The position numbers were made by a program, and so were the translations under genes. From positions 1 through 64,000 of the forward strand of contig NZ_NFLJ01000008.1 of the NCBI RefSeq assembly GCF_002160865.1: DNA of 64,000 nucleotides, given 5' to 3'. Source of the DNA: Massiliimicrobium timonense (GTDB lineage Bacteria > Bacillota_I > Bacilli_A > Erysipelotrichales > Coprobacillaceae). Numbering within the stretch: position 1 is the stretch's first letter; every line of letters begins with the position of its first letter. The notes below the pieces were generated by a model that worked only from the letters and a program-made list of their open reading frames with translations, was not told where the DNA came from and searched no databases. Shown piece by piece: positions 3,570 to 42,109 of the stretch.

Positions 3570-4568
3570 TTATAGATTTGATATTGAATTCATCATTGGA
3601 ATAATAATCGCGATATAAATTGTAATAACAAAGATAGCTACAAAACAATAAACTGCCGGTATCAGATATTTTAAAAATCTTTTGATCCAGTAATCTAAAT
3701 ATTCATAGGTAGCTTGGATATAATAAGATAAAGCATTTTTTTGTTGAGGATTTTTCATATACATTTGAAAAAAAGAAATAAACAATTGATCAAAGTATTC
3801 AAAATCCTCCAGTATTTCTTCTAAATTCTCACCTCCATATAAACGATTATTCATTTCATATAAGACTATTTTTAAATCACTATCCGTCATTTGTTCATTT
3901 AAGACTTGAATAATTCTTGTACTATCCATATCCTCATTTAATAATTCATGAAAATACAAAGCAAACTTCAAAGAAAAATATTTTTGTAAAATTGTCTTAA
4001 ATACTGGCCATTTTAAATAAAGTTCAATGACCTTATATAATTTATGCTTAAGTCCATAAACAAGCCTGAAAATAAGATATAAGCTTAAAAATACAGCTAA
4101 TATAATCAAACAAGGCATAATGTAAAAGAAAGCAAATAAGATTTGAATCACAATTGATTTTTCAATCTGAAATGATAAAAATAACTGATTGACATTAGGC
4201 AATAAAACCAAAACAACAAATAACGAGAAAAGAAATAAAAATGTCATTAATATAGAGGGATAAGTTAATTGAGATTTTAATTGATTTTGATAATCCTCTT
4301 TCATCATGCATATATCCAGACTTTTTTTAATTGCTTCTGATAAACAATTCTTATTTTGAAAAAAACGAAAATATTCTTGAAATAAATGAGGTAATGAAGA
4401 CTGCAATAATACAGTTTCAATAGATTCACCATGATCCAGTTGTTTTAACATCTCATGAATTGCTGGATGATGAAGCATCTGCTGACATAAACTCAACGTT
4501 TCTTCAATACTGTAACCAGCATCTAACAAGCTATACATATTCTTCAATAAAAGATAATCTTTATTCAT
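3570..4568 (-). CDS. comGB: ComGB, polytopic inner-membrane platform protein
   Basis: ComGB is the GspF/PilC-type membrane platform that links the ComGA ATPase to pilin polymerisation. The 332-residue protein has two homologous cytoplasmic helical domains, each followed by membrane helices: a pair at roughly residues 115-180, and a C-terminal helix near 300-325 ending in a short tail. ATG 4568 is chosen because AGAGGA lies about 8 nt upstream. The start overlaps the comGA stop as ATGAATAA. Length and position between comGA and comGC fit the family. Confidence 0.9.
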   Translation of the reverse strand: MNKDYLLLKNMYSLLDAGYSIEETLSLCQQMLHHPAIHEMLKQLDHGESIETVLLQSSLPHLFQEYFRFFQNKNCLSEAIKKSLDICMMKEDYQNQLKSQLTYPSILMTFLFLFSLFVVLVLLPNVNQLFLSFQIEKSIVIQILFAFFYIMPCLIILAVFLSLYLIFRLVYGLKHKLYKVIELYLKWPVFKTILQKYFSLKFALYFHELLNEDMDSTRIIQVLNEQMTDSDLKIVLYEMNNRLYGGENLEEILEDFEYFDQLFISFFQMYMKNPQQKNALSYYIQATYEYLDYWIKRFLKYLIPAVYCFVAIFVITIYIAIIIPMMNSISNL

Positions 4569-5547
4569 TAGTGAGTTCCTCTTTAAACAAGGCCTGATTA
4601 AAACCAAGATTGACAAGTTCTAAAGCTGCCTTTTGAAATGATAAATAAGAACATGTATGCTCTTTGAGATATTGTTCAATATCCTTTTTCTTCATCAATT
4701 CTGATAAAACAATAGCCTGTTTATTTTGAATATCATATTTCATACGTTGTGAAATCACACCAATGACCACATCAAGAATATCAGCTTCATGAATTCCTAA
4801 ATTCATTAATCTTTTCATTGATAAAGGTGCATTACTGGCATGAATTGTTGTTAAAACAAGATGTCCAGTCAAAGCACATGTTAAAGCAATCTTCGCTGTT
4901 TTTTCATCACGAATTTCTCCTATCATAATCACATCGGGATCATGTCTTAAAATCTGTTTTAATGTATCATGATATGTAATTCCAATTTTTTCATTTAATT
5001 CAATTTGAAGACAACCATCTAAATGAATTTCAATAGGATCTTCAATCGTAATAATGTTTTTACGTGCTCCTGATAAAATTTGTTTTAATAAGGTATAAAG
5101 CGTGGTTGACTTACCAGAACCTGTAGCACCACTAATAAAAAACAAACCACTATTTTGTAAAGAAAGCCAATAGAGATAATCTTGAATTTCCTTTTGGTAT
5201 GTTAATTCTTCAATCGAACGTAATTCATGATTATTCAAAATTCTAATCACAATACTTTCAAATTCAAGAGAAGGTAAATAAGATACCCTTAAAAAATAAG
5301 TCTTTTGATTCATATTTATAGAAATATTACCTGTTTGAGGCATCAAACGATAATTCGTATGAATCATAGAACGATATTTAATAAAATTCATCAGCTTATA
5401 CCCTCTTTCATTTTCCATCACCTCATATTTCTTTAATTCTCCAAAAATACGAAACTGAATCTTCAAATCCTTTTTCAATAACAAATGAATATCAGTAGCA
5501 TTTTGGTTTAATGCACGATAAATCATCTTCTCAAATAGTTCATTCAT
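4561..5547 (-). CDS. comGA: ComGA, competence pilus assembly ATPase
   Basis: ComGA is the GspE/PilB-family traffic ATPase that powers pseudopilus assembly for DNA uptake. The 328-residue protein has Walker A GATGSGKST (residues 140-148), the Asp box TIEDPIE (about 167-173), Walker B DPDVIMIGE (about 203-211) and the His box GHLVLTTIHAS (about 228-238). The N-terminal domain is short and the zinc-binding tetracysteine motif is absent, as in other ComGA proteins. It is the first gene of the operon, preceded by GGAGGG and by an unusual promoter region shared with a double-glycine peptide. As in B. subtilis, the upstream neighbour is a YqgX-type hydrolase. Confidence 0.95.
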   Translation of the reverse strand: MNELFEKMIYRALNQNATDIHLLLKKDLKIQFRIFGELKKYEVMENERGYKLMNFIKYRSMIHTNYRLMPQTGNISINMNQKTYFLRVSYLPSLEFESIVIRILNNHELRSIEELTYQKEIQDYLYWLSLQNSGLFFISGATGSGKSTTLYTLLKQILSGARKNIITIEDPIEIHLDGCLQIELNEKIGITYHDTLKQILRHDPDVIMIGEIRDEKTAKIALTCALTGHLVLTTIHASNAPLSMKRLMNLGIHEADILDVVIGVISQRMKYDIQNKQAIVLSELMKKKDIEQYLKEHTCSYLSFQKAALELVNLGFNQALFKEELTNE

Positions 5548-5556
5548 AATAACCCT

Positions 5557-5592
5557 CCTATTATATATATACGCATTATTTTTGCATTTTTC
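5557..5592 (-). promoter_or_regulatory. Promoter region of the comG operon with shared GAAAAATGC-N20-TAATAGG motif
   Basis: On the minus strand GAAAAATGC is followed after exactly 20 nt (AAAAATAATGCGTATATATA) by TAATAGG, which runs into the ribosome-binding site. A TATAAT-like -10 is present, but no TTGACA-like -35: AAAAATGC occupies that place. The same two blocks at the same spacing occur upstream of the double-glycine peptide (38514-38549). A shared activator or alternative sigma factor is inferred. Confidence 0.55.
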
Positions 5593-5600
5593 TTTTTTTT

Positions 5601-37219: not shown

Positions 37220-37900
37220 TCATTCATGATAAAAAAACAACTGTTTAGCTTGTATACTATAAAACTGATTCCAGCCAACAATAATATGATCCATCACTTC
37301 AATTGCCATCATTTCTCCAAGTTTTTGAAACTGACTGGTTAATAAAACATCTTCTTCACTAGGCAATGCATCCCCACTAGGATGATTATGAATCAAGACA
37401 ATTTTGGCACTATTGACAGCTATTGCTTCTTTAAAAACTTCTCTAGGTGTGACAACACTCATATTTAATGAACCAATAAAAATAGTTTTTTCTTTAATCA
37501 CTTTATTTTTATTATCTAAGCATAACAACAAAAAATGTTCCTGTTTTAAAAACATTAGCTGATTATGCACTCTTTCAAAAATATCCAAAGGATTCAAAAG
37601 AGATTTTTCCATTGTAGAAACATCTTTTAATCTCTTAGCAATTTCTATAATACTTAATATTTCAATCGCTTTTGCCTGTTTAATTCCCTTTAAAGCTGTT
37701 AAATCGGCATAGGTCACATTACTCAATTGAGCAAAGCCACCAATTTGTTTTAAAAGACGTTGTGAAAGCTGAATAACTGATTCACTTTTATGTCCGGTCC
37801 TTAAAATCAATGCCAATAATTCTACATTACTCAAATTTTCTATACCATAAGTTAACGCTTTTTCTCTCGGATTTTCTTCTAATGGTAAAGTTTTGATCAT
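37220..37900 (-). CDS. radC: RadC family JAB-domain protein
   Basis: The 226-residue protein has an N-terminal helix-hairpin-helix region (LKGIKQAKAIEILSIIEIAKR) and a C-terminal JAMM/MPN metal-binding motif HNHPSGDALPSEED. Despite the name, a DNA-repair role is unproven; radC is competence-induced in several naturally transformable Firmicutes. It overlaps the SpoIIB-like gene upstream by 4 nt (ATGA) and precedes mreC, as in B. subtilis where maf lies between spoIIB and radC. Here maf is elsewhere (50931-51485). Confidence 0.93.
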   Translation of the reverse strand: MIKTLPLEENPREKALTYGIENLSNVELLALILRTGHKSESVIQLSQRLLKQIGGFAQLSNVTYADLTALKGIKQAKAIEILSIIEIAKRLKDVSTMEKSLLNPLDIFERVHNQLMFLKQEHFLLLCLDNKNKVIKEKTIFIGSLNMSVVTPREVFKEAIAVNSAKIVLIHNHPSGDALPSEEDVLLTSQFQKLGEMMAIEVMDHIIVGWNQFYSIQAKQLFFYHE

Positions 37901-38253
37901 GACACATCACCTTGAGATAAATTATCTAAAAGCATTTGAGTTGTCATAGATGAAGGAACTGTATAAGTTTTCATAATTCCTTTTACTTGTGCGGCATGTT
38001 TTTCAATGTCTTCTTTTTGTTCACTAATCATAGATAAAACATAATATTGATCATTTTTCATATAAGTATAGCCTTTAATACCCATGTCTTTGAGTTCTTT
38101 TAATTTTTGATCTTTATTGTCTGCTTCTTTATAAATCCCTACTTGATAGGCATATAATGTTTTTTGCCCTAAAGAACATCCATATGTAAAGACCAGCATA
38201 AAAGCCAATGAGCAAATCAAAGCCATGATAACAACTTTCCATTCAAACTTCAT
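37897..38253 (-). CDS. SPOR-like membrane protein, candidate SpoIIB
   Basis: The 118-residue protein has a short cytoplasmic N-terminus, one membrane helix (about residues 5-24) and a C-terminal domain of about 65 residues with a SPOR-like repeat: YAYQVGIYKEADNKDQKLKEL and GYTYMKNDQYYVLSMI. SPOR domains bind denuded septal glycan. In B. subtilis the SPOR protein SpoIIB lies between comC and maf-radC, so this short protein occupies the spoIIB position. ATG 38253 is chosen because AGGGGTGA sits 6 nt upstream; ATG 38259 and GTG 38262 overlap the Shine-Dalgarno. The SpoIIB link is inference from topology and synteny. Confidence 0.65.
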   Translation of the reverse strand: MKFEWKVVIMALICSLAFMLVFTYGCSLGQKTLYAYQVGIYKEADNKDQKLKELKDMGIKGYTYMKNDQYYVLSMISEQKEDIEKHAAQVKGIMKTYTVPSSMTTQMLLDNLSQGDVS

Positions 38254-38287
38254 TTTCATCACCCCTTCTATTATATGCTTTCATGCA

Positions 38288-38320
38288 TAAAAATATGAAA
38301 GGCTTAAAGCCTTTCATATC
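38288..38320 (-). terminator. Terminator of the double-glycine peptide gene
   Basis: ATATGAAAGGCT and AGCCTTTCATAT form a perfect 12-bp stem with a 3-nt loop, then TTTTT on the minus strand, 2 nt past the stop. The peptide gene is therefore a self-contained unit. Confidence 0.9.
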
Positions 38321-38321
38321 A

Positions 38322-38486
38322 TCAATCACGCCATTCAATACTGATGAGTCTTGGTATTGAAATTCTTCCCTTTTTAGATTTAATGATCTTATAGGCTGCA
38401 GCTCCTAAAATTAAATAAAGTAAAGCTGTCGCAATAAGACTTCCTCCTTGAATTTCACATTGTTGCTGTAATGTTAACTCTTTCAT
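38322..38486 (-). CDS. Double-glycine leader peptide, putative bacteriocin or pheromone
   Basis: The 54-residue product begins MKELTLQQQCEIQGG, a classic double-glycine leader (Leu at -12, Glu at -5, Ile at -4, GG at -2/-1) cleaved by bacteriocin-type ABC peptidase transporters. The mature part would be about 39 residues: a hydrophobic helix (SLIATALLYLILGAAAY) followed by a basic segment KIIKSKKGRISIPRL and an ending IEWRD. ATG 38486 has GGAAGGG upstream; ATG 38504 (GGGAG upstream) would add six residues. It has its own terminator and the comG-like promoter. No transporter or immunity gene is adjacent. The class is not identified. Confidence 0.75.
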   Translation of the reverse strand: MKELTLQQQCEIQGGSLIATALLYLILGAAAYKIIKSKKGRISIPRLISIEWRD

Positions 38487-38513
38487 GTTGACCCTTCCTT
38501 TCATCAGTAGCTC

Positions 38514-38549
38514 CCTATTATTTATATATACATTTTTTTCGCATTTTTC
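38514..38549 (-). promoter_or_regulatory. comG-like promoter of the double-glycine peptide
   Basis: GAAAAATGC, 20 nt (GAAAAAAATGTATATATAAA) and TAATAGG on the minus strand match the comGA upstream region in both blocks and in exact spacing. As there, no TTGACA-type -35 is visible. It begins immediately after the valS terminator. Confidence 0.55.
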
Positions 38550-38560
38550 TTCTTAAAAAT

Positions 38561-38591: not shown

Positions 38592-41213
38592 TTACATTTG
38601 ATTTAATTTATCTTTCATTGTATTAAATTTTGATTGATAATCAGCCAGTTTCTGTTTTTCCTGTTCAACTTTTTGAGCAGGTGCCTTAGAAACAAAGTTA
38701 GGATTAGAAAGCATGGATTCACAACGCTTGATTTCATTTTCAAGCTTTTTAATTTCATCTTCCATTTTTTTCTTTTCAGCTTCTAAATCAATATAATCAC
38801 CTAGTTCAATAATCAATGCATTTCCACCTTTAATCATTTCTGTTGCTACATTTGAAGATGTTTCAACATTATATCCAAAACAACGTGCATGACATAACTT
38901 ATAAATATATGGAGAAAGATTTTCCAATAAATTTTCAAGCTGGTTATCCTGTGTTTGAATTGAATAAGCAATTTCAATAGCATTTTTTATAACATATTGG
39001 GCTCTTAAATTTCTAATCCCTTTAATAATATCAATCAAATAAACAAACTGATCTTGAATTATTTCATTATTGAAATCCGGATTAACTGTTGGCCATTTTG
39101 CAATACAGATAGATGGCTGTAAATGAGGAATTGATAAATAAATTTCTTCTGTTACAAAAGGCATGAATGGATGTAATAATCTAACTATTGCGTTTAATAC
39201 ATAAACCAGTGTATTTTGGGTTGCTTTCTTTTCTATTTCATCATCACTGTTTAAATGAACTTTTGATAATTCAATATACCATGAACAAAAATCATCCCAG
39301 ATAAAGTTATACAATTCACTACCAACATTAACAAATTCAAACTTATCCATATTCTCATCAACTGAAGTAATGACTTCGTTTAAACGATTTAAAATCCATT
39401 GATCAGCCAAATTCAAATGGTCAAAAGATAAATTCTGATAAGACATATCATCATCAATATTCATTAAAACAAATCGAGCACTATTCCATATTTTATTGAT
39501 GAAATTCCATGCCGCATCTAGTTTTTCTGGAATATATCTTAAATCCATACCCGGTGCAGAATTAGTTGTTAAAAAGAAACGTAAAGTATCCGCTCCATAT
39601 TGATCAATAACATCCATTGGGTCAACACCATTACCTAAAGATTTAGACATCTTTCTACCCTGTTCATCACGAATCAAACCATGAATCAAAACATTTTGAA
39701 ATGGTCTTTGTCCTGTAAATTCTAATGACTGGAAAATCATTCGAGAAACCCAGAAAAAGATGATATCATAACCTGTTACCAATGTATCTGTTGGAAAATA
39801 ACGTTGATAAAGTTCACTTTCTGTATTTGGCCATCCCATTGTTGAAAAAGGCCATAATGCACTTGAAAACCATGTATCAAGCACATCTTCATCCTGTTTC
39901 CAGTTTTCAATGTCTTGTGGTGGCTCTTTTCCTACATAAATTTCTCCTGTTTCTTTATGATACCATGCAGGAATTTGATGTCCCCACCATAATTGACGTG
40001 AAATACACCAGTCTTCAATATTTTCCATCCATTGTTTAAAAGTCTTTTCAAAACGTGGTGGCACGAATGAAACTTTAGAATCTTTCATCTGATTTTCTAA
40101 GGCTGCATTCGCTAATGGTTTCATTTTGACAAACCATTGCTTAGATAAATAAGGTTCTACAATAGCATGACTTCTTTCAGAATGCCCTACTTGATGCATA
40201 TGTTTTTCAATATGATCAACGACACCTCTTGATTCAAAATCGTGAACTAGAGCTTCACGACATTCAAAACGATCCATTCCCTGATAAGGTCCACATAATT
40301 CATTCATTGTGCCATCATCATTCATACATTTAGGCATTGCTAATTGATATTTTTTAGCAAGAGCAAAGTCATTAGGATCATGCGCAGGTGTACATTTCAT
40401 AACAGCTGTTCCAAAGCTCATATCAATATAACTATCTGCCATAATTGGTAAGGCTTCACCATTAGCCGGGTTAATAGCATGTTTTCCAACCAGATGCTGA
40501 TATCTTGTATCATCAGGATGAACAAAGATAGCCTGATCGGCAAACATTGTTTCTGGACGTGTTGTTGCGATAACTAGATTTTCACCTGTTTCCACAACTT
40601 CGTAATTGAAATAATACATATGTCCTTCAATTTCTTTATGAATAACTTCAATATTAGATAAAGCCGTGCGTTGTACTGGATCCCAGTTAATAATACGTTC
40701 TCCTTGATAAATATAACCTTTTTTATAAAGTGTTACAAAAACAGTTTTGACTGCTTCACTTAATCCTTCATCTAATGTGAAACGTTCTTTTGTGTAATCA
40801 AGAGAAAGACCTAATTTTTCCCATTGACTACGAATAATAGAAGCATATTCTTCTTTCCAAGACCATGCTTTTTCTAGAAATTTTTCACGTCCTAAATCAT
40901 AACGAGAAATTCCGTCTTCTCTTAGACGTGCTTCCACTTTAGCCTGTGTTGCAATCCCCGCATGATCCATTCCCGGTAACCACAAAGCATCATAGCCTTG
41001 CATTCTTTTATAACGAATAATCATGTCTTGTAAAGTTGTATCCCAAGCATGTCCCAAGTGAAGTTTTCCTGTTACATTTGGTGGTGGAATAACAATACTA
41101 TATGGTTTTTTAGAAGTGTCTCCAGCTTCAAAATAGTGATGATCTAACCATGTGCGATATTTCCCTTCTTCAACAGCTTTATGATCATATTTCGTCGCTA
41201 ATTCTTTCTTCAT
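38592..41213 (-). CDS. valS: Valyl-tRNA synthetase
   Basis: ValS charges tRNA-Val. The 873-residue class I synthetase has the HIGH-type motif [16 protein letters not shown], an editing (CP1) domain with [13 protein letters not shown] and [10 protein letters not shown], the KMSKS motif [14 protein letters not shown], an anticodon-binding domain and a C-terminal coiled coil ([22 protein letters not shown]). ATG 41213 is chosen because GGGAG lies 9 nt upstream, and it overlaps the upstream membrane-protein gene by 29 nt. Expression is presumably controlled by the T-box before that gene. Confidence 0.98.
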
Positions 41214-41871
41214 TATTTTCAACTCCCTCTTTCAAATCTTCTTCTGGTATTTCATAATCATAGAAATCTTCCTTATGATCTAAAACATATTGCGTTAATT
41301 TTTCATTGACATTTGTTGTGCTGACAAGAGTAATAAACTCATTGGTAAAGTCAGTAAAATTATAGCGTGAATAATCTCCCATTTCTGGATCATCTTCATC
41401 ATCATCTTCGTCATTTTCAATAATTTCAGCAAAACGTCTTGCTGCTTTCATTAAATCAGCCAATTCATGTGCTCCAATTTTTTCAAATATATCTACGATC
41501 ATTGGCACAAATGGTTGACTGGCAGGACTTAAAAAGAAACTATGTAATGATGCATTACGACCTTCTAAAGATGTTGTAATCATATAAATGCCATAAACTG
41601 TTTTTTCACTTTCGTTCATTTGTTCAAAATAATGTTCAAAATCATCATTTTCTTTTCTCATACAATGAAACAAAGCAGCTGCTGTCACATCTTCTCTAGG
41701 ACATACATCTAAGACACCCGGTCTTAAATATGAATATTTTTCTTTCTTTTCCTCATATTCCAGTAATGCTTTTTGACGTTGTGCCTTTCCTTCATTAATT
41801 CTTTTCATAAAGAAATAACCTAAAAAAATCAAAGCCGCAATAAATAATCCCCATATAATATAATTTGCCAT
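41185..41871 (-). CDS. Unknown N-terminally anchored membrane protein in the valS unit
   Basis: The family is not recognised. The 228-residue protein has one N-terminal membrane helix (about residues 4-22), a basic stretch, a helical cytoplasmic domain ([21 protein letters not shown]..., [26 protein letters not shown]), then an acidic segment [12 protein letters not shown] (about 163-174) and an acidic C-terminus. It starts right after the T-box terminator and overlaps valS, so it is under valine-tRNA control together with the synthetase. Why a membrane protein should be so controlled is unclear. Confidence 0.8.
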
Positions 41872-41886: not shown

Positions 41887-42109
41887 ATAAAAAAGAACAT
41901 TCGTATAAGGACGAATGTTCGTGGTACCACCTTAATTTATATACTGATCGTATACCTCAAAACTTTAACGCAGTTCTACGTGTTTACCTACTCCTCTTTC
42001 AGAAAACAGACTCAAAGGCTACCTTCCATTTCTTCTTCTATCTCTTTCCACCACCCAGAGATTCTCTATCAGAATACAAAATGTACTCCTCCTCATCAAC
42101 GTCTACTAT
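41887..42109 (-). promoter_or_regulatory. T-box riboswitch of the valS unit
   Basis: The minus-strand leader has the T-box sequence AAGGTGGTACCACG (41920-41933) and a terminator with a perfect 10-bp stem GAACATTCGT/ACGAATGTTC followed by TTTTTTATT (41887-41920). The leader of about 220 nt has the usual length; Stem I-like sequence GAGGAGGAGTACA lies near its 5' end. GTA at about 42020-42022, in GGTAGCC, is a candidate valine specifier, not verified by folding. Uncharged tRNA-Val would pair with the T-box and prevent termination. Confidence 0.9.

Follow-up and report, generated by a model that had tools for sequence, protein, structure and literature searches.

The window, which is the whole stretch of 64,000 nucleotides that was analysed, contains a comG operon and, some 33 kb away, a small locus where a gene for a double-glycine peptide is followed by a 121-aa reading frame and radC (Table 1). 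The two share an upstream element. The pattern GAAAAATGC-N20-TAATAGG has two exact matches in the window, at 5557-5592 (-) upstream of comGA and at 38514-38549 (-) upstream of the peptide reading frame, and a TATATA tract lies inside the N20 'gap' of both copies. This is what the first-pass annotation of this DNA had described, together with the lack of a TTGACA-like -35, and both observations were made again here. The peptide reading frame had been placed at 38322-38486; the frame was correct and the longer coordinates in Table 1 start from the first ATG instead of the second.

About 0.0001 exact matches per 64 kb are expected by chance according to our calculation, a figure that refers to a pattern chosen after it had been seen. 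The fair tests are genome-wide, and the whole genome was therefore searched.

The earlier parsing of the element, with GAAAAATGC and TAATAGG as the two promoter boxes, had to be revised. TAATAGG was rejected as the -10 because at comGA it continues into the Shine-Dalgarno sequence AGGAGG and overlaps the expected transcript start, and because TATAAT is lost in many copies. The -10 is probably TGCGTAT, located inside the former gap and 11 nt after AAAGAAAAA, and these two blocks are now read as the boxes. Most of the signal is carried by the -10-like block TGYRTATAT and by the A-tract preceding GAAAAAT. With this parsing, transcription would start approximately 7 nt past TGCGTAT.

Table 1. Features of the comG and peptide loci, with positions in the window
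Feature	Position	Strand	Evidence or remark
comGA (328 aa), ATPase for DNA uptake, opening the comG operon	4561..5547	(-)	Pfam T2SSE, E=1.9e-76
ComGB-like and prepilin-like ORFs after comGA	down to about 1865	(-)	by eye
comG operon promoter	5557..5595	(-)	exact match; register conserved at comGA of sister genera
comG promoter, -35-like AAAGAAAAA	5595-5587	(-)	11-nt spacer, then -10-like block
comG promoter, -10-like TGCGTAT (probable)	5575-5569	(-)	followed by TATATAATAGG as far as the presumed start and the Shine-Dalgarno
radC, 226 aa, downstream of the peptide gene	37220..37900	(-)	NCBIfam PRK00024.1, E=8e-71
121-aa ORF between peptide gene and radC	37897..38262	(-)	no NCBIfam match
Sigma-70-like promoter ahead of the 121-aa ORF	38299-38270		
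Hairpin and T5 directly 3' of the peptide gene, terminator-like	38292..38320	(-)	-20.4 kcal/mol, z=-5.3
Double-glycine peptide gene	38322..38504	(-)	60 aa if the first ATG is used, 54 aa with the second
Peptide promoter	38514..38552	(-)	exact match; element also upstream of orthologous peptide genes
Peptide promoter, -35-like GAAGAAAAA	38552-38544	(-)	11-nt spacer to -10-like block
Peptide promoter, -10-like TGTATAT	38532-38526	(-)	

The element in the genome and in related genera

The pattern first seen lies within a longer one, AAAGAAAAA-N11-TGYRTATATAWATARTAGR. The whole-genome search gave the two exact copies and a number of close variants, and their alignment resulted in the refined form GAAAAAT-N10-TGYRTATATAWATARTAGR, usually with an A-tract ahead. 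When three mismatches are allowed, this form has 13 matches in the own genome and none for the reversed pattern, and the five genomes of the genus together have 45 matches and again none reversed. Among 43 genomes of the family, 96 matches with at most two mismatches were found in 14 genomes of 7 genera, compared with 2 in total for the reversed control. The element occurs across Massilimicrobiota as well as in five or more sister genera. When about 85,000 species genomes were scanned for exact copies, only Massilimicrobiota gave matches.

The 13 copies in the own genome precede comGA, dprA (PF02481, E=2e-75), the peptide gene, a 173-aa gene, a 106-aa gene and eight Rpn-type cases, which are PD-(D/E)XK 'transposase_31' (Rpn) genes, truncated ends, or a contig end beside the same leader. 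Relatives add recA (PF00154, three genomes), a DNA methylase (one genome), PDDEXK_2 and DUF1016 nucleases and, in G001, a 144-aa gene and cinA; the 144-aa gene is likewise behind the element in G020. The finding of recA and cinA refers to the relatives. The regions upstream of dprA have the same element in the lineages g15, g16 and g19; in g7 the version there contains GAAT. The list of competence genes is incomplete: no copy of the element was found at comEA-comEC, which is located in the ruvAB operon, and neither comF nor comC was located.

The core SigX regulon of streptococci includes comG, dprA, radC, cinA, recA and dpnA (PMC5069739), and the list of genes behind the element largely overlaps it. 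The first-pass annotation had suggested that one regulator drives DNA uptake and a secreted peptide together, and had proposed a genome-wide search for enrichment before competence genes. The idea of a shared promoter survived this search: the element precedes comG, for DNA uptake, and dprA, recA and the cinA locus, for DNA processing, with the exception that comEA-comEC does not belong to the group.

Rpn-type genes number in the dozens behind this promoter, with many copies per genome and long open frames in most of them. The 78 distinct proteins found behind the element include 15 with PF04754 and 15 with PF12784. The own genome has seven PF04754 genes; the element is present at all five that have upstream sequence, and the other two begin at contig ends. 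One of the five, on contig C25, has the element with 5 mismatches.

Several smaller observations concern the other genes. The 173-aa protein (L101:5773-6294 (-); orthologs in G001-G004, G008, G027, G032 and G033) always has the promoter element upstream and is 86-98% identical across three genera. Neither Pfam nor NCBIfam gave a match to it and no PDB sequence matched convincingly, it is PemK/MazF-like by eye only, and its predicted structure (pLDDT 48) is unusable. The 106-aa gene (L103:6246-6566 (+), and orthologs behind the promoter element) adjoins a pair of genes with dipicolinate-synthase-like sequences, as judged by eye, and the model of its protein (pLDDT 81) has a weakly SecB-like predicted fold (E 0.007). 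Proteins of about 150-180 aa matching only the N-terminal 80 residues of DprA are encoded at L274:869-1348 (-) and L275:870-1313 (-), with matches in over ten family genomes, and a split DprA-like ORF pair is located at L273:1734-2438 (+). The comGA match in G001 (G001:C1:2427009-2427977 (+)) contains internal stops, 1 TGA and 2 TAG, possibly due to a frameshift. Near-copies of the -10 half, with a common downstream sequence and without the A-tract, are found outside competence at G000:C62:9153, C67:9757 and C77:6429; the one that was read precedes a family-4 glycosidase gene. They possibly represent another regulon or chance.

Promoter layout and the candidate sigma factor

In Listeria, sigma-H promoters have the consensus RMAGGRWWW-N11-12-RRMGAAW and drive comGA from a site 19 nt from the gene (PMC4754846). 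The window and sister genera have AAAGAAAAA or GAAGAAAAA, which agrees with the -35 of this Listeria consensus in 8 of 9 positions. The spacer is 11 nt at comGA, dprA and the peptide gene and 12 nt at the gene for a C39-peptidase exporter in most orthologs, which is the sigma-H range of 11-12 nt. The -10 of the own genus, TGCGTAT, agrees with RRMGAAW in five of seven positions and falls short of it by having GTAT instead of GAAT.

Comparison of the regions upstream of comGA in the family shows that the register is constant and that the -10 varies by lineage. TGCGTAT is found in the own genus and in g11, g15 and g19, and g20 has mostly GTAA. In g16 the site is GAAGAAAAA-N11-AGTGAAT (14 of 16 consensus positions, 6 of 7 in the -10), and two g8 genomes have GAAGAAAAA-N11-AGCGAAT (15 of 16, with all 7 in the -10). 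No such site was evident upstream of comGA in a few genera. Scanned for freely, the sigma-H consensus fails to discriminate in DNA this AT-rich, and a fixed-register test was therefore used. With the 11-nt spacer, the summed sigma-H score of 15 representatives was 176 compared with 160±3.9 for shuffled sequences, and none of 1000 shuffles was as high. When the own genus and g19 were removed, the nine with a leader promoter scored 112 against 98±3.1, again with no shuffle as high (0/2000).

A gene for a 204-aa sigma factor is found in the order cysS-mrnC-rlmB-sigma-secE-nusG-rplK, the neighbourhood of sigH in Firmicutes. The best NCBIfam hits of the protein are SigH models, with E-values from 1e-21 to 8e-19 that are under the curated cut-offs. 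This sigma factor is found in 42 of the 43 genomes of the family, and its most similar versions are those of genera that have the GTAT element. The -10 variants are clustered in a tree of the sigma factor, but the clustering also tracks species descent, so it is consistent with a link and not decisive. The other sigma factors in the genome are RpoD, the sporulation set and three small ones that each adjoin an RsgI-like gene. We infer that SigH is the sigma factor reading the element. In Bacillus subtilis, sigma-H drives spoIIA. The element was not seen in the upstream regions of dacF, spoIIA and spoIIGA that were read, and because of this absence the SigH studied here may be specialised in competence.

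The regulon is real and almost certainly one for competence, and control of the sigma-H/ComX type is the best reading of it. We put the probability that the promoter is read by a SigH/ComX-type sigma factor, in a competence regulon that includes the peptide, the exporter and the Rpn nucleases, at roughly 0.77. The sigma factor encoded between rlmB and secE-nusG would recognise the element and, when active, turn on the comG pseudopilus, DprA, RecA and the cinA locus. It would also turn on many Rpn/PD-(D/E)XK nucleases, two further conserved proteins, and the double-glycine peptide with its putative C39-peptidase exporter, and the cells would become transformable. Some observations speak against this reading: the GTAT of the own-genus -10 departs from GAAT, the element is absent upstream of comEA-comEC and of the sporulation genes that were read, and the own genome has three near-matches outside competence.

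The element might instead be bound by a separate protein, an activator or repressor of competence acting together with ordinary sigma-A. The TGYRTATATAWATARTAGR block of about 19 bp, which is longer than most -10 elements, would suit such a protein, as would an inverted repeat around the -10 of the exporter promoter and the TATAAT inside some copies. However, the related pneumococcal ComX site TTMCGAATADWNWRRD, directly ahead of the start, is likewise 20-30 bp (PMC6560143), and a TTGACA-like -35 for sigma-A is lacking. A sigma-A -10 at TATAAT would place the start inside or past the Shine-Dalgarno sequence, AATAAT replaces TATAAT in many copies, and the two blocks 11-12 nt apart, with GAAT in homologous promoters, fit sigma-H. 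We consider a separate regulator unlikely.

It is very improbable that the element merely rides on dispersed Rpn-type repeats and marks a mobile family instead of a regulon. Rpn-type genes are the largest group behind the element and close Rpn paralogs have upstream sequence in common, but the element also precedes single-copy genes (comGA, dprA, recA, the exporter and the 173-aa gene) in several genera and with unrelated flanks, and Rpn subfamilies have it in common while their leaders range from 11 to about 100 nt. Coincidence of ordinary promoters and Shine-Dalgarno sites in AT-rich upstream DNA, for which the 68% AT of the window and the overlap of TAATAGGAGG with the Shine-Dalgarno sequence might speak, is refuted by the genome-wide counts against the reversed pattern and by the fixed register across genera.

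The peptide and its putative exporter

The peptide has the leader MKELTLQQQCEIQGG followed by a hydrophobic and conserved mature part of 39 residues, and had no Pfam or NCBIfam match above the cut-offs. Orthologs were found in G001, G004, G032 and G033, giving five genomes of two genera, and the gene is always located before the 121-aa gene and radC. The element precedes the orthologs in G004, G032 and G033, and a variant form is found in G001. The mature peptide is identical in 30 of 39 residues between the genera, and the codon differences are 21 synonymous and 13 nonsynonymous. A hairpin, which the terminator scan did not list, and a sigma-70-like promoter are found between the peptide gene and the genes that follow, and the element promoter therefore serves mainly the peptide. 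Given this strong hairpin and the intervening promoter, radC is no longer counted as definitely cotranscribed with the peptide gene, and its transcription from the element may depend on readthrough.

A full-length ABC exporter with a C39 peptidase was found in all eight genomes tested, so that both features of the double-glycine class, the GG leader and the C39 exporter, are present. The exporter gene has a conserved neighbourhood of housekeeping genes and lies between an aminotransferase gene and ybeY, cdd and era in the three genomes read. No peptide gene is found alongside it, and it is the only orphan C39 peptide exporter. The same element, as AAAGAAAAA-N12-TGCGTATATA or a close variant, precedes the exporter gene in 7 of 7 orthologs, and was missed by the pattern search because the spacer is mostly 12 nt. 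The link between DNA uptake and the peptide is thereby stronger than the first-pass annotation had proposed. The peptide and the exporter, chromosomally unlinked and under the same competence promoter, form a natural pair, in which the exporter would cleave and secrete the peptide. An inverted repeat, CCTCTTACTTTT...AAAAGTAAGGGG, surrounds the exporter -10 (L349:5361-5415 and orthologs) and is a possible second operator.

The role of the peptide could be as a signal, in killing or in something else. The first-pass annotation had suggested that lysis by a bacteriocin is coupled to transformation. The coupling of the peptide to the competence promoter holds, but bacteriocin-mediated lysis would be one possibility among others, because the peptide is conserved and no recognisable immunity gene is found beside its gene. 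Elsewhere in the window, a T-box leader (41904-42108 (-), Rfam RF00230, 130.8 bits) is located upstream of a 228-aa ORF and a valS-like gene at 38592-41222.

Relation to known competence systems

The closest relations are with the sigma-H-dependent competence promoters of Listeria (comGA, comEA and coiA; PMC4754846) and the competence genes that sigma-H activates in Lactobacillus sakei (PMC3364868). The present system resembles them in having two blocks spaced by 11 nt near comGA, a -35 of AAAG type and a sigma-H-like sigma factor, with comG and dprA among the targets (PMC4754846, PMC3364868). It differs in that the -10 is TGCGTAT and not RRMGAAT, that comEA-comEC is left out, and that Rpn nucleases, the peptide and the exporter are included.

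The resemblance to streptococcal ComX/SigX lies in comG, dprA, recA and cinA; radC is close by, and one genome adds a DNA methylase (PMC5069739, PMC6560143). The -10 GCGTATA resembles the streptococcal cin-box TMCGAATA, which is not matched exactly, as the own genus has TGCGTATA. Unlike in streptococci, the -35 is an A-tract and not a T-rich stretch, the site sequence is different, the sigH locus holds the sigma gene, there are many Rpn genes, mostly with long open frames, and both the peptide and the exporter are under the competence promoter itself. Pneumococcal BriC and ComAB are comparable by type, BriC being a conserved double-glycine peptide under competence control and ComAB an exporter of C39 type; BriC is under ComE, with the early genes, whereas the promoter found here is of sigma type and like that of late genes (PMC6560143).

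A literature search found no paper on competence regulation in this group of gut bacteria, which has been little studied. Control of competence by sigma-H/ComX is already known, and what is new is the organism group, the diverged -10, the expansion of Rpn genes and the pair of peptide and exporter. The system offers a case beyond streptococci where DNA uptake is linked to a predicted exported peptide and to its putative exporter. Now that the promoter is defined and a candidate sigma factor and a list of genes are available, the natural transformability of gut bacteria of the Erysipelotrichia type becomes directly testable.

The findings also suggest a role for the large and poorly understood Rpn/'transposase_31' family. 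Rpn proteins of Escherichia coli (YhgA-like, PF04754) belong to the same Pfam family as the predicted nucleases found here behind a competence promoter (PMC5350276, PMC10327210). They act as endonucleases on DNA and increase recombination that does not depend on RecA (PMC5350276), and other members have been reported as anti-phage toxin-antitoxin systems (PMC10327210). The simplest inference is that the Rpn nucleases would work on incoming or damaged DNA during competence. A wider proposal is possible but somewhat doubtful. Rpn nucleases might be ancient and ordinary members of Firmicutes competence that act on or recombine incoming DNA, and the Rpn pseudogenes under ComX control in pneumococci would then be relics of them; the same sigma factor might, by making a conserved exported peptide and its dedicated exporter, couple competence to a social or lytic peptide through a promoter that evolved separately from streptococci. 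The leaders of several Rpn genes measure 80-100 nt; the hairpin fold is less clear in other subfamilies, and the leader at L011:1531-1640 (+) forms a long hairpin (z=-2.8).
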